Assembly: GCF_000092305.1 (NCBI RefSeq)
Contig: NC_014122.1
Coordinates: 930,001-994,000, forward strand
DNA: 64,000 bases
Reading direction: 5' to 3'
Source of the DNA: Methanocaldococcus infernus ME
GTDB lineage: Archaea; AGJL01; Methanococci; Methanococcales; Methanocaldococcaceae
The stretch's first letter is position 1. Each line of letters opens with the position of its first letter. The notes under the pieces are model-generated. The model searched no databases and was not told the origin of the DNA. It was given only the letters and a program-made list of their open reading frames with translations. Shown piece by piece: positions 20,672-25,548 of the stretch. The translations under genes were made by a program, and so were the position numbers.

Positions 20672-21385
20672 ATGTTCAGGAGAAGAGTTATTATTAAAGA
20701 AACTAATTTATTGGTTAAGTTAAAGGATCAGAGATACTTTAAATTTGTAGAGGAGAATGTAATTAGATTAAGAGCTGAGCTTGAACACTATATTTTAAAA
20801 AATCCTTATTTTTTAACTTCTTTAACTCCTATCTATGTTGAAGAGGCTCCAGAGATTATTAAGCTTATGTCCCTCTCCTCCATAAAAGCCAATGTTGGAC
20901 CTATGGCAAGTGTTGCTGGAGCCATTGCTGAGCTCTCTATTAGAGATGTGCCTACTGAAGCTATAGCAGATAATGGTGGAGACATTGCCTTAAAAACTAA
21001 AAAAGCTATTGTTGGCCTATATTCTGGCTCATCTCCAATATCTGGAGAGATTGGATTTTTAATAAAAAATAAAAAGTTTTATGGGGTTTGTACATCATCA
21101 GCAACTGTTGGACATTCTATAAGCTTTGGTAATGCTGACTCTGTAACAGTCTTTGCCAAAAGCCCAGCTTTAGCTGATGCCTCAGCTACAGCTATCTGTA
21201 ATGTAACTATTGGAAAAGATAAAGAGGAGATGATACAGAGAGGCTTAGAGAGAGCTGATAACATAGAAGGAATAGATGGAGTTTTTATAGTTGTTGGAGA
21301 GCTTGTAGGAGTTAAGGGAAAGATTCCAAAGGTAATTAAAACAGATAAAAAAGCTACTTTGGGAGAATTATTTGATATTTATTAA
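20672..21385 (+). CDS. UPF0280 family protein (ApbE-related)
   Basis: A 237-residue protein of the UPF0280 family. Diagnostic stretches are GPMASVAGAIAELSIRD, IADNGGDIALKT, GICTSS-type motif VCTSSATVGHSISFGNADSVTVFA and LADASATAICN. The family is related in fold to ApbE flavin transferase/FMN proteins but lacks a proven reaction, and is common in methanogens. It is the last gene of the 19251-21385 plus-strand run and overlaps the convergent PAC2 gene by 4 bases. Confidence 0.85.
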   Translation: MFRRRVIIKETNLLVKLKDQRYFKFVEENVIRLRAELEHYILKNPYFLTSLTPIYVEEAPEIIKLMSLSSIKANVGPMASVAGAIAELSIRDVPTEAIADNGGDIALKTKKAIVGLYSGSSPISGEIGFLIKNKKFYGVCTSSATVGHSISFGNADSVTVFAKSPALADASATAICNVTIGKDKEEMIQRGLERADNIEGIDGVFIVVGELVGVKGKIPKVIKTDKKATLGELFDIY

Positions 21386-22146
21386 CCAATATATCTTAGA
21401 TCCTCATCACTTGGTGGTTTTTGCATAGCCTTGACCATCTCTTCTTCAAACTTTCTAATTCTCTCTATAAATTGTTCCATACTCTTAGCTCTCTTTTTAA
21501 GTTCTTCCATATCTATCTTTATATTCTCAATAGATGAGAATTTTTCAAGAACTGCTTTAGCTGCATTTGGGTCTATTAGATAACCAGGAGTTTCCCCCAT
21601 TAAACAAACTCCTGGTAGGTTGTTAAGATCAGCAAAGAGTAGCATTAAACCAGCAGCTCCTACTATTCCTCCACCATCTGATCTAAACTCAACTCCATGC
21701 TCCTTTATCTTTTCAGCTAACTCTTTTCTGTTTGTTGCTCCATAAACCTTAGGCTCTTCACTAATCTTTCCTGTCCCAAAGCCTCCAAAGGTGTAGACAA
21801 AAGAGGCTCCATATTCTATGCCTATCTTAACAATCTCCTCAGATAGGTGATACTGTCCTATTGGAGAGAGAGCCTGAGTATTCCCTAAAACTATGATCAT
21901 TGGCTTAGGCTCCTCTATCTTATAAAATTCAGCTCTCATATATTCAATAGTTCCATCATCTTTAACTAAAACCTGTGGGGGAAAGTCATAACAGTAGAGC
22001 TCTAAAAAGAGTTCTCCATTGAACTCATGAACTAAGTGCTCAGCTGCTAACCTACCAACATGTCCAATTCCTGGAAGCCCTTCAATAAGAAGAGCATCTT
22101 TTAGAGGATCAATTTCTTTAACAACTTTTCTTATCATCTTCACCAT
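21382..22146 (-). CDS. Proteasome assembly chaperone family protein (PAC2/COG2047)
   Basis: A 254-residue protein: LIEGLPGIGHVGRLAAEHLVHEF, PMIIVLGNTQALSPIGQYHLSEEIV, VYTFGGFGTGK and SDGGGIVGAAGLMLLFA are the PAC2-family core. The C-terminal 50 residues form a coiled-coil-like helix, ending PPSDEDLRYIG. Archaeal relatives (PbaB) aid 20S proteasome assembly through a C-terminal Hb-Tyr-X tail. Here the tyrosine is third from the end, so that docking motif is not exact. An AAGGTG site precedes the ATG. Confidence 0.85.
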   Translation of the reverse strand: MVKMIRKVVKEIDPLKDALLIEGLPGIGHVGRLAAEHLVHEFNGELFLELYCYDFPPQVLVKDDGTIEYMRAEFYKIEEPKPMIIVLGNTQALSPIGQYHLSEEIVKIGIEYGASFVYTFGGFGTGKISEEPKVYGATNRKELAEKIKEHGVEFRSDGGGIVGAAGLMLLFADLNNLPGVCLMGETPGYLIDPNAAKAVLEKFSSIENIKIDMEELKKRAKSMEQFIERIRKFEEEMVKAMQKPPSDEDLRYIG

Positions 22147-22207: not shown

Positions 22208-22816
22208 TTATTCTTTATCTTTTTCTGAGCACCACTTACATTTCCTATACCCTAAGTTTAAGGCATCTTCCTCAGAGTAGAAATAAATTTTATTATCTTC
22301 TTTAATTTTCTTACCATATGGGCAATCTTTATTTGTATGGTAAATTTTTGAGTATTTTGATGCATATATATTAGTTTTGTTTTTAGCTAAGGTTATTTTA
22401 TCTTCAAAATTCTTCTTCAAAAGAAGTTTAAAATCTTTAATATCCCTTAGTATAATCTGATATCTTCCTTTATACACTGAAACCTTCCCTTTAACTTCAA
22501 CATAATCTCCTTCTAAGATATTCTTCTCCTTTATATACTTGGTTAGTTCTTCTCTCACTTTACCAAAGGCTACAATATCTATATCTCCAGAATCATCAAT
22601 AATTCTAATTTTATAAATTTTTTCAATCTCATTATATTTATTTTTCTTAGCATAAATTTTAGAAATATCTCCTCTTAAAATAACATAATCATCTTCTTTA
22701 ACTTCAGCTATTTTCTTATAAGTTGGCTCTGGTGGAAAAAAGTAGAGATATGTAAAAGAGGAGAGAATAAAAATAAGTAAAAGAGGTAGAGTTAAGTTTT
22801 TAGGATGTATTTTCAT
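22208..22816 (-). CDS. Membrane-anchored OB-fold protein with Ada-like zinc-binding tail
   Basis: A 202-residue protein. Residues 8-28 (LTLPLLLIFILSSFTYLYFF) are a signal anchor. Residues about 45-130 form an OB fold (DYVILRGDISKIYA, GDIDIVAFGKV, GDYVEVKGKVSVYKGRYQIIL). The tail, IYASKYSKIYHTNKDCPYGKKI with EEDALNLGYRKCKWC, is the His-Cys-Cys-Cys motif seen at the C-terminus of thermonucleases and related to the Ada metal-binding domain. The architecture suggests nucleic-acid handling outside the membrane, but no nuclease residues are visible. Its function is unknown. It lies next to the S-layer genes. Confidence 0.65.
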   Translation of the reverse strand: MKIHPKNLTLPLLLIFILSSFTYLYFFPPEPTYKKIAEVKEDDYVILRGDISKIYAKKNKYNEIEKIYKIRIIDDSGDIDIVAFGKVREELTKYIKEKNILEGDYVEVKGKVSVYKGRYQIILRDIKDFKLLLKKNFEDKITLAKNKTNIYASKYSKIYHTNKDCPYGKKIKEDNKIYFYSEEDALNLGYRKCKWCSEKDKE

Positions 22817-22858: not shown

Positions 22859-23428
22859 TTAAGGCTTCTCTATTTTAACAGCCTTTCCGTCTTTCCATTC
22901 TACGAAGATTGGTTCCTCTGGAATATAATCCAAGGTTTTAAAGTACTCTACGGCAGCTTTAGTTCCCCATCTGTCTGAACCAGCTAAGAGTAGAACTTTA
23001 ACTTCTTTGTAGAGATGATCGGAGATCTTAACATTCAACTTAATCATTTCAATAACTCCCTTATTCTTTCCTGGATATTCATTAGTTACTTTAACCGGGA
23101 ACTTATCCATTAACTTCTTAGTTAATGGGTTTGCCACTGGCCCTCCGATTAGGATAGTGTCTTTTGTTATTTCTATATTATTATTTGTATTTGTTATTAA
23201 TACTGGATTAATTTTCAGCTCTTTAGCAAGATCTAAATCTGAAGCAGTTCCTGCATAAATATCAGCTGTTTGTATAAATACTTTTAAAGTATAAGATTTA
23301 ATATCTTGAGATACATCAGGACACCTTATATATGGAGAGCTTTTCCATCCATTACCTTTAGCATAAGCTCCACTCATTACTATTAATGCTAAAGTTAACA
23401 TTACTAATATTAATACCATTTTTCTCAT
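22859..23428 (-). CDS. Short S-layer-like secreted protein
   Basis: A 189-residue protein with a signal peptide (MRKMVLILVMLTLALIVMSGAYA) behind a GGTGA ribosome site; I reject a longer GTG start that lies inside that site. The mature part resembles a cut-down S-layer protein: DTILIGGPVANPLTKKLMDKF and VKVLLLAGSDRWGTKAAVEYFKTL correspond to LVLIGGPVANKLTKELVDMG and VVVVAGGDRYKTREAAKYLIEKL at the end of the large S-layer protein. The large central domain is missing. It is transcribed in the same direction, 76 bases downstream of slaA. CpG content is higher than in housekeeping neighbours. It may be a minor cell-surface component. Confidence 0.65.
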   Translation of the reverse strand: MRKMVLILVMLTLALIVMSGAYAKGNGWKSSPYIRCPDVSQDIKSYTLKVFIQTADIYAGTASDLDLAKELKINPVLITNTNNNIEITKDTILIGGPVANPLTKKLMDKFPVKVTNEYPGKNKGVIEMIKLNVKISDHLYKEVKVLLLAGSDRWGTKAAVEYFKTLDYIPEEPIFVEWKDGKAVKIEKP

Positions 23429-23479
23429 AATACTCACCAAAATGAACTTTTTTATGTAAATGTGTTAATATAATTTAAT

Positions 23480-23503: not shown

Positions 23504-25498
23504 TTATTCAAGTTCAGCCAATTTTTCTATTAAGTATTTAGCAGCTTCTCTTGTCTTGTATCTATCTCCACCAGCTACAACTACAACGTCATGTCCGTTA
23601 GCTGCGCCAGGAATTACTGCTATAGTTGCTGGACTATCGTTGTCTAAACTTATTTTGCCCATATCGACTAACTCTTTTGTTAATTTGTTTGCTACAGGCC
23701 CTCCAATTAAGACTAAGTTTTTATCAGCCGCATCTAAGCTAATTTCAGTGTCTAATTTGGCTATTGGAGTAGAGACTGGACATGGTTTTATTGCATTAGC
23801 CTCTATCTCATTTAATTTTATATCTGCATTTAATATAGGCTGTTCTTGACCTGGCTTTAAGCATATGGATTTTGTAGTATCCATTGAATAGTAAACATAT
23901 AACCTATCTTTCTTGTCTTCATCATCAAACTTAAATACTGCATAATCCTCTGGGAAACTTAATTCGTCTCCATTTTCTAATCCATCCAACTTATCTCCTT
24001 CATATCTTAAAGCTATACCAACTACACAATCTCCAGTTTTAATATCTTTACTTAATACTAATTTATTGTTATCCATTACAACAGCATATATTTTCCAATC
24101 TGGAACATATTCTTTACCTAAATCTAATTCTTTGCAGTTAGTTAGTATCTTAAGTTCTGCAAATCCTGTTTGTTGTGGAATATTCTGCCATGCTTTATGT
24201 ACAACAACAGCTATGTCTCCTTCTTTATAGTATAGAGTGAATGGAGCTTCTTTAAACTCTGATTTTACTACTTGACCATTCTTTAGAATTTCTACTTTAA
24301 CCTTTGCTACATTTTGTGGAATATCTTGTAATATATTTGAAACTTTTACCTGATAACCGTTTCCAAGATCATAAACTGTACCTTCTTGCATTACGTCTGA
24401 ATATACACATTTTCCAAGTAATATATAATCATCATCAGCATCAACTTTACCAACTGTCCAAGATGATCCTAAGAATGGAATTACCATTCCTTTATCTATA
24501 CATCTAGTCAATAATGGATTTGATTCTCCATCTAAATATGCTAAACTCATATATAAAGCATCTTTTTTGTCGATTACATAAGATTCTGGATCGTTTGGAT
24601 CTGGTTTAACTATTACTGCTAAGACTTCTCCAGCATCGTCATCAATGTCGTACCAATCACTTGGATCTATATCATCAATTTTTAACATAGTTCCCATTGA
24701 ACCTAAACTAATTCTTGTATCCATTACAGTTTTTAATTTTTCAATAACTTTTTGTAAGTCTATTGTTACTGTATAAGTACCATCTCCATTATCCACTATA
24801 TTAACAACAATGTCTGATTTGGTAGGATCTTTACTTAATATTGCATCAATAAACTTATTATATTCATCTTCACCTAAAGCTAATTTAATATCATTTAATA
24901 ACTCATTACCATTTATATTATCTTGGTTAATATTTAATTTGGCATTTGTAATTGTTCTTTCATTTATATTAAAAGTTATTGAAAGAGTTGGATTACCTAA
25001 ATCTTCTAATATTTTTGATACTAAAGCATATTCACTACTAACTTGTGCATTATACATTGGGATATTTTGTAAGTCTTTCATATCATTAACGTCTAAAACC
25101 CCTAAGTTACTTACTAAGTCGTCTGCATAATCACTATCAGAAGCGGTTATAAAGATTGTTGGCTCTGTTAATAAAGTACCGTGGTCATATATTAATTCAT
25201 CGTCACTTTTAGAACACACATGAACATCTAAGCAAGCCTTTCCAGTATCAACTGTACTCTCTTTATAGCATAAGCTACCTATAGCTGCAGCAACGTCAGC
25301 AGCTGAAACAACGTCCATAGTTGATGGAGCGTTTGCACCGACTACAACGTAGCAGTTTGGCTGTCCATCTTTAACAAATATATCTTTAGAAACTTCCCCT
25401 ATAACTGTAACTTCAGCGGAAACTCCACTTGCTAAGGCTGTAGCTACCATTGCTCCTCCAACAGCTATAGCACCTATTTTCTTTAAACTCATTGCCAT
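23504..25498 (-). CDS. slaA: S-layer protein
   Basis: A 664-residue major cell-envelope protein. The N-terminus MAMSLKKIGAIAVGGAMVATALASGVSA is the Methanocaldococcus S-layer signal peptide. CYVVVGANAPSTMDVVSAADVAAAIGSLCYKE follows, and the C-terminus LVLIGGPVANKLTKELVDMG...VVVAGGDRYKTREAAKYL closes the split outer domain. The mature protein is acidic, with many DD and sequon motifs. It is about 100 residues longer than the M. jannaschii S-layer protein as I remember it (about 558); the extra part lies near residues 135-255. I chose ATG 25498 because AGGTGA precedes it and the GTG at 25507 lies inside that site. CpG and C-ending codons are more frequent than in neighbours, fitting very high expression. 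Confidence 0.9.
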   Translation of the reverse strand: MAMSLKKIGAIAVGGAMVATALASGVSAEVTVIGEVSKDIFVKDGQPNCYVVVGANAPSTMDVVSAADVAAAIGSLCYKESTVDTGKACLDVHVCSKSDDELIYDHGTLLTEPTIFITASDSDYADDLVSNLGVLDVNDMKDLQNIPMYNAQVSSEYALVSKILEDLGNPTLSITFNINERTITNAKLNINQDNINGNELLNDIKLALGEDEYNKFIDAILSKDPTKSDIVVNIVDNGDGTYTVTIDLQKVIEKLKTVMDTRISLGSMGTMLKIDDIDPSDWYDIDDDAGEVLAVIVKPDPNDPESYVIDKKDALYMSLAYLDGESNPLLTRCIDKGMVIPFLGSSWTVGKVDADDDYILLGKCVYSDVMQEGTVYDLGNGYQVKVSNILQDIPQNVAKVKVEILKNGQVVKSEFKEAPFTLYYKEGDIAVVVHKAWQNIPQQTGFAELKILTNCKELDLGKEYVPDWKIYAVVMDNNKLVLSKDIKTGDCVVGIALRYEGDKLDGLENGDELSFPEDYAVFKFDDEDKKDRLYVYYSMDTTKSICLKPGQEQPILNADIKLNEIEANAIKPCPVSTPIAKLDTEISLDAADKNLVLIGGPVANKLTKELVDMGKISLDNDSPATIAVIPGAANGHDVVVVAGGDRYKTREAAKYLIEKLAELE

Positions 25499-25548
25499 CT
25501 CTTTCACCTAATTTTATGTTTTGACGGTATAACATTATGGCCATAGTA

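Follow-up and report, generated by a model that had tools for sequence, protein, structure and literature searches.

A probable DNA-uptake protein of Methanocaldococcus infernus with a membrane anchor and an OB fold, encoded apart from TctA

What is the function of a small protein that joins a hydrophobic N-terminus, an OB fold and a cysteine-containing tail, and whose gene adjoins those of the S-layer? The question arises from a locus of Methanocaldococcus infernus ME in the 64,000-nucleotide stretch of DNA that we analysed (NC_014122.1, positions 930,001 to 994,000; hereafter the window). A preliminary description, made from the letters alone, had taken the proximity of envelope genes as a hint at DNA binding or uptake at the cell surface. 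That interpretation is partly supported: it appears right in substance, but wrong in its main argument. We consider the protein to be the Methanocaldococcus orthologue of Methanococcus maripaludis MMJJ_13020 and, as such, probably a membrane-anchored OB component of the archaeal DNA-uptake machinery, with a mechanism that we outline below.

Architecture and conservation of the protein

The open reading frame is real and its previously described coordinates are right; its strand, which had not been given, is minus, the plus-strand reading of the same interval containing 14 stops. The following features are referred to throughout, all of them on the minus strand.

22208-22816, minus strand: 202-residue protein with membrane anchor, OB fold and zinc-type tail, orthologous to MMJJ_13020; open reading frame from ATG
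22739-22795, minus strand: N-terminal membrane helix, residues 8-26; mean Kyte-Doolittle value 1.94; helix 9-26 in the AF2 model
22436-22690, minus strand: OB fold, residues about 43-127; PF01336 (66-127) and, below cut-off, PF13742 (43-126)
22226-22369, minus strand: zinc-type tail, residues 150-197, Ada metal-binding/sunset-like, with models below curated cut-offs; in the AF2 model, the ten-residue blocks that start at residue 151 have pLDDT 73-91
22337-22339, minus strand: His160, first predicted metal ligand; invariant in 29/29; codon confirmed in the DNA
22322-22324, minus strand: Cys165, second predicted metal ligand; invariant in 29/29; codon confirmed in the DNA
22229-22240, minus strand: Cys193 and Cys196 (CxxC), third and fourth predicted metal ligands; invariant in 29/29
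22859-23440, minus strand: upstream neighbour, 193-residue protein with S_layer_C match; listed for context, outside the system
23504-25507, minus strand: S-layer protein, 667 residues; context, not part of the system
21382-22146, minus strand: downstream neighbour, PAC2/proteasome-assembly-chaperone-like protein; context only

The proposed combination of signal anchor, OB fold and His-Cys-Cys-Cys tail is borne out by the hydrophobic helix, by the PF01336 match (E 2.8e-11, 43.6 bits, above the cut-off of 27) and by the four invariant ligands. Three further matches fall below their cut-offs, namely those of the tail to the Ada metal-binding domain PF02805 (18.6 bits, cut-off 23) and to sunset NF051437 (18.8 bits, cut-off 27), and that of the protein to DUF4131 (14.8 bits, cut-off 31.6). 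Pfam scans of the protein returned neither a competence domain nor a match to SNase PF00565, in agreement with the earlier observation that nuclease residues are absent, and domain scans returned no methyltransferase domain. When 29 family members were scanned against Pfam at E 0.01, PF01336 was matched by 27, DUF4131 (PF13567) by 18, Ada_Zn_binding by 16 and RMI2 by 14; since PF01336 and RMI2 match too, the DUF4131 matches may reflect a general OB likeness.

Conservation was assessed in an alignment of 29 Methanococcales proteins (A1), drawn from 31 genomes with a profile match, of which G018 and G002 were left out. His160, Cys165, Cys193 and Cys196 are invariant throughout, as are Tyr159, Tyr167, Gly168 and Tyr190. 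As all four ligands are kept in 29 of 29 sequences, the tail pattern is not a product of chance, and the expectation that orthologues retain the Cys and His residues holds for every aligned protein; in a thirtieth, that of G002, the tail is interrupted. There, the reading frame shifts directly behind the second ligand (L013/L014), through either error or decay. From the invariant His/Cys pattern we infer that the tail binds zinc.

An AF2 model computed from a two-sequence alignment has a mean pLDDT of 51.7, with fair confidence in the tail and values below 50 for residues 28-147. The OB region is poorly modelled, and Foldseek returned no PDB match at E 0.001; the N-terminal domain of Ada, at rank 40 with E 2.4, was not counted as a match. 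A profile search of PDB sequences yielded nothing at E 0.1.

Orthology to a transformation gene and association with TctA

The window protein is the orthologue of MMJJ_13020. It shares 43% identity with a protein of genome G014, which fits M. maripaludis JJ by published transposon-insertion coordinates; the published insertions lie inside the matching G014 reading frames, and the orthologue of the window protein is therefore MMJJ_13020.

1192953-1193564: OB gene, spanning the MMJJ_13020 insertions at 1,193,041, 1,193,088 and 1,193,089
1193565-1194761: TctA, directly behind the OB gene, spanning the MMJJ_13030 insertion at 1,194,079
1210117-1210719: M50 peptidase-like frame, spanning the MMJJ_13210 insertion at 1,210,579
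1499355-1499912: thermonuclease (SNase), spanning the MMJJ_16440 insertion at 1,499,668
1571750-1572223: ArtE-like frame, spanning the MMJJ_17200 insertion at 1,571,918

The ArtE-like and M50-like frames owe their names to PMC10133366 and to visual inspection rather than to a family scan; a further stretch that we looked at has no listed frame of at least 120 residues and is uninformative. MMJJ_13020 shares the helix, the OB fold and the His-Cys-Cys-Cys tail with the window protein.

PMC10133366 (Fonseca et al. 2023) reports, from in-frame deletion and complementation, that MMJJ_13020 is essential for natural transformation of M. maripaludis, as is its TctA neighbour MMJJ_13030. The pair had been recovered by random transposon mutagenesis in a screen for transformation, which also brought up pili and a secreted nuclease. 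Deleting the TctA homologue of M. thermophilus likewise abolished transformation, although BLASTp detected no clear MMJJ_13020 homologue in that organism (PMC10133366). The same paper describes the transporter through which naturally competent archaea import DNA as unknown, and the words 'zinc' and 'Methanocaldococcus' do not occur in its main text; a full-text search of open-licence literature for MMJJ_13020 retrieved this paper alone. The role is thus known from the orthologue. Our own additions are the tail, the separation of the two genes in Methanocaldococcus and the broad pairing of OB proteins with TctA, none of which we found in the open-licence literature searched.

TctA is an 11-helix transporter. 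To gauge its association with OB proteins we relied foremost on profile A1, which is blind to TctA, contains Methanococcales only and gives the less biased figure. Outside this order, 39 matches cover the helix and OB fold (model start ≤12, end ≥111), 34 of them with a listed TctA position. In 16 of these 34, TctA follows on the same strand less than 700 bases downstream, against about 0.02 expected; the 16 are spread over 11 families, and 18 are unpaired. Viewed from the TctA side, an OB protein lies upstream on the same strand in 48 of the 110 loci; by family, this holds for 37 of 87 and leaves 50 without adjacency. OB proteins accounted for 48 of the 74 same-strand upstream neighbours of TctA, compared with 6 of 458 other genes. 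These TctA-side figures are partly circular, in that the iterated OB profile behind them was trained on these neighbourhoods. The TctA-side sample includes loci L130-L159, the top TctA hits of profile A2, all 13 members of which lie directly behind an OB gene; L225 gave no TctA frame, and contig edges cut a few stretches short. Gene calling also missed pairs, as those of G190, G274, G291 and G313 are adjacent by coordinates yet went uncounted, and family f115 is absent from the 37. A third count, with profile A5, gave 39 of 87. Alignment A5 includes the window sequence, and the comparison was repeated with relatives only (A6); profile A1 then aligned with A6 over helix and OB fold at a probability of 99.4.

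The short helix-OB proteins upstream of TctA (A5, A6) thus have the same arrangement of helix and OB fold as the window protein. The listed single-OB relatives measure about 100-145 residues and have no tail match, and some lineages carry two, three or about eight OB repeats; in the TctA loci scanned, no OB protein from outside Methanococcales gave a match to the tail model. In family f7, TctA genes are preceded by anchored proteins of 383-990 residues with several OB matches. Two of these (L336:2516-5479 and L341:2035-5007), 987-990 residues long with about eight OB matches, overlap or abut TctA. The product of L338:5509-6915, with several OB matches, has by eye a lipoprotein-type start and a Ser/Thr-rich linker, and its gene adjoins that of another multi-OB protein.

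The association is not universal. TctA itself is widespread (274 of 394 genomes), and in the phylum centred on G124 it occurs in 262 of 294 genomes; an OB gene was directly upstream in 0 of the 50 loci fetched there. For two of the 50 the stretch contained no gene on the upstream side, and in 3 an OB match turned up at another place within it. The wider OB family is also present where TctA lies elsewhere, and may have other roles.

Within the phylum of the window genome, the OB profile was found in 31 of 36 genomes (in two pieces in G002, and with a second, weak match in G035), TctA in 32 and the nuclease in 34. OB protein and TctA are both absent from four genomes (G024, G025, G031 and G032), of which G025 and G031 keep the nuclease; G007, 86% complete, is missing the OB protein alone. 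As the four double absences fall in one genus and include two incomplete genomes (54% and 86%), they may represent few independent events. The window genome (G000; 1.33 Mb, single contig), in which a search at E 1 returned one match to the window protein, encodes all three components at separate places:

C1:952211-952816: OB gene
135968-137128: TctA
792321-792830: thermonuclease

Whereas MMJJ_13020 directly precedes TctA, the window gene is thus 815 kb away from it along the contig, or 511 kb in the opposite direction should the molecule be circular, and adjoins S-layer genes instead. By coordinates, the OB gene adjoins TctA in 13 of the 18 sister-family genomes with both genes, compared with 0 of 13 in Methanocaldococcaceae; adjacency to TctA is a trait of the neighbourhood, not a feature of the OB protein itself.

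TctA belongs to a solute transporter family (PF01970), and its presence in 274 of 394 and 262 of 294 genomes would suit a general transport function. OB folds, moreover, can bind oligosaccharides and proteins too. The window protein might accordingly act together with a TctA-type solute transporter or regulate it, its OB fold binding a sugar, a phosphate compound or a protein, with the loss of transformation an indirect effect. We regard this as unlikely, given that both genes emerged from a random transposon screen for transformation alongside pili and the secreted nuclease (PMC10133366), and that nuclease, TctA and OB genes form one cluster in G404, while in G238 a nuclease gene ends 56 bases before TctA.

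Proposed role and orientation in the membrane

We therefore favour a role of the window protein in DNA uptake, on account of the genetics of its orthologue, and place it at the membrane step because of the conserved pairing with TctA; the OB fold itself suggests DNA handling. This supports the earlier proposal of DNA binding or uptake at the surface, although by way of orthology to MMJJ_13020 and not of the envelope genes nearby. In the mechanism that we propose, the helix would anchor the protein, with OB fold and tail outside the cell. Pili would bring DNA in, the secreted thermonuclease would cut it, and the OB fold would hold the DNA and pass it on to the TctA-like membrane protein, a candidate channel. 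The tail would be a small metal-stabilised module that probably contacts DNA, the nuclease or the channel. The proposal also supposes that Methanocaldococcus is competent for transformation.

By analogy, OB protein, TctA and nuclease together might do the work of bacterial ComEC, in which a membrane helix likewise stands next to an OB fold that is essential for transformation and acts beside a channel and a nuclease (PMC5031224). That paper places the DUF4131 OB region of ComEC outside the cell, gives it as required for transformation and regards it as a likely binder of single-stranded DNA. ComEC, however, unites competence and beta-lactamase-like domains in a single polypeptide, whereas the parts considered here are separate proteins of other families (TctA, SNase).

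With the opposite topology, OB fold and tail would be cytoplasmic and would catch DNA as it leaves the TctA channel, in the manner of the single-strand binding proteins of bacterial transformation. Lys and Arg are indeed more numerous on the C-terminal side of the helix in 14 of 21 Methanococcales proteins and 23 of 59 others, and a reduced Cys/His metal site should be easy to keep in the cytoplasm. The net charge around the helix in Methanococcales, on the other hand, averages +0.95 before and -0.67 after it, which favours an N-terminus inside. The charge counts do not settle the matter. The outward topology is preferred because of the f7 relatives, the lipoprotein-like partners and ComEC: the f7 proteins look outward-facing, by eye, with a long, strongly basic N-terminus before the helix in those of L336 and L341 (987-990 residues); the multi-OB protein of L338 has its lipoprotein-type start and Ser/Thr-rich linker; and the OB region of ComEC lies outside the cell (PMC5031224). 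A cytoplasmic OB fold thus appears improbable, and the window protein is likely exported.

The OB-TctA pair, then, is a concrete and widely conserved candidate for the archaeal DNA transporter, one that is easily overlooked in Methanocaldococcus owing to the split arrangement. Its occurrence in 37 of 87 families turns a result from two methanogens for TctA, and from one for the OB protein, into a prediction for many archaea, and the invariant tail offers four residues to mutate.

Local neighbours, tailed nucleases and cluster variants

The S-layer genes do adjoin the window gene, as the preliminary description had noted. Of 12 Methanocaldococcaceae loci, one of which (L070) is cut a single gene upstream, 7 have an S-layer homologue (BLAST cluster) no more than three genes upstream, and the window is among them. 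This would be in keeping with a protein for maturation of the S-layer or cell envelope. Yet the same holds for 0 of 9 sister-family loci, in 7 of which TctA is the next gene downstream (in pieces in two), and the orthologue has a transformation phenotype (PMC10133366), so that we consider a maturation role very unlikely. The S-layer neighbourhood, being confined to part of the Methanocaldococcaceae, is therefore secondary, and we reject it as a clue to function. For the 193-residue upstream neighbour, S_layer_C is the sole match above cut-off, and the protein forms a cluster of its own among the compared loci. On the downstream side, a phosphatidylserine-decarboxylase-like cluster gene directly follows the OB gene in 9 of the 12 Methanocaldococcaceae loci (e.g. 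L062:10618-12091), a place taken by the PAC2-like gene in the window genome.

The statement that such tails occur on nucleases was confirmed: among the matches listed, those to a tail-bearing thermonuclease model reach the model end in at least 8 genomes of four families. All 8 genomes with a listed tailed nuclease have TctA, as against 274 of 394 genomes that have it anyway. Thermonucleases with sunset/Ada-like tails, such as those of G226, G277 and G238, carry the same kind of C-terminal tail as the window protein, behind an SNase domain where the latter has an OB fold, and the OB proteins of G226, G277, G311 and G238 look tail-less, with open-frame lengths of 116-134 residues. The M. maripaludis transformation nuclease is without a tail; this nuclease, EcnA, is reportedly the subject of a biochemical paper.

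Two loci bring nuclease and TctA together. In G238 (L238), the gene of a lipoprotein-like tailed thermonuclease ends 56 bases before TctA, and the same strand carries a tail-less helix-OB gene 2.5 kb ahead of TctA. In G404 (L286:198-3908), a one-strand cluster encodes a lipoprotein-like nuclease, TctA, a small basic protein and a helix-OB protein. Such proximity is rare, with one case (L238) in loci L062-L101 and L130-L249, scanned with a nuclease model built from three sequences that include that of L238 itself, and one (L286) in a set of 50 loci.

Taken further, these observations tentatively point to a widespread archaeal DNA importer of separate parts, in which an outward helix-OB protein, a TctA-like channel and a secreted thermonuclease would perform the OB, channel and nuclease work of ComEC, with channel and nuclease of other families. 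The His/Cys tail could then be an interchangeable docking or DNA-handling piece, placed on the OB protein in Methanococcales and on the nuclease in some other lineages; the idea of a tail swap draws on few cases.

That the window protein is instead a membrane-anchored relative of Ada-like repair proteins or of thermonucleases is hardly credible: its tail is Ada-like below cut-off and also found on thermonucleases, and RecG, XseA (the large subunit of exonuclease VII) and YhaM match weakly, far below cut-off, but these matches start at residue 31 or later and end by residue 133, in the OB region and not the tail, and neither an SNase nor a methyltransferase domain is present. The metal site of Ada consists of four Cys, the first of which accepts the methyl group, whereas the first ligand here is His160; on domain content and this replacement we reject both the Ada-type repair and the nuclease reading. 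Elsewhere, and with neither OB fold nor nuclease domain by Pfam, a membrane protein encoded at L111:6072-7001 carries three tail-like modules.
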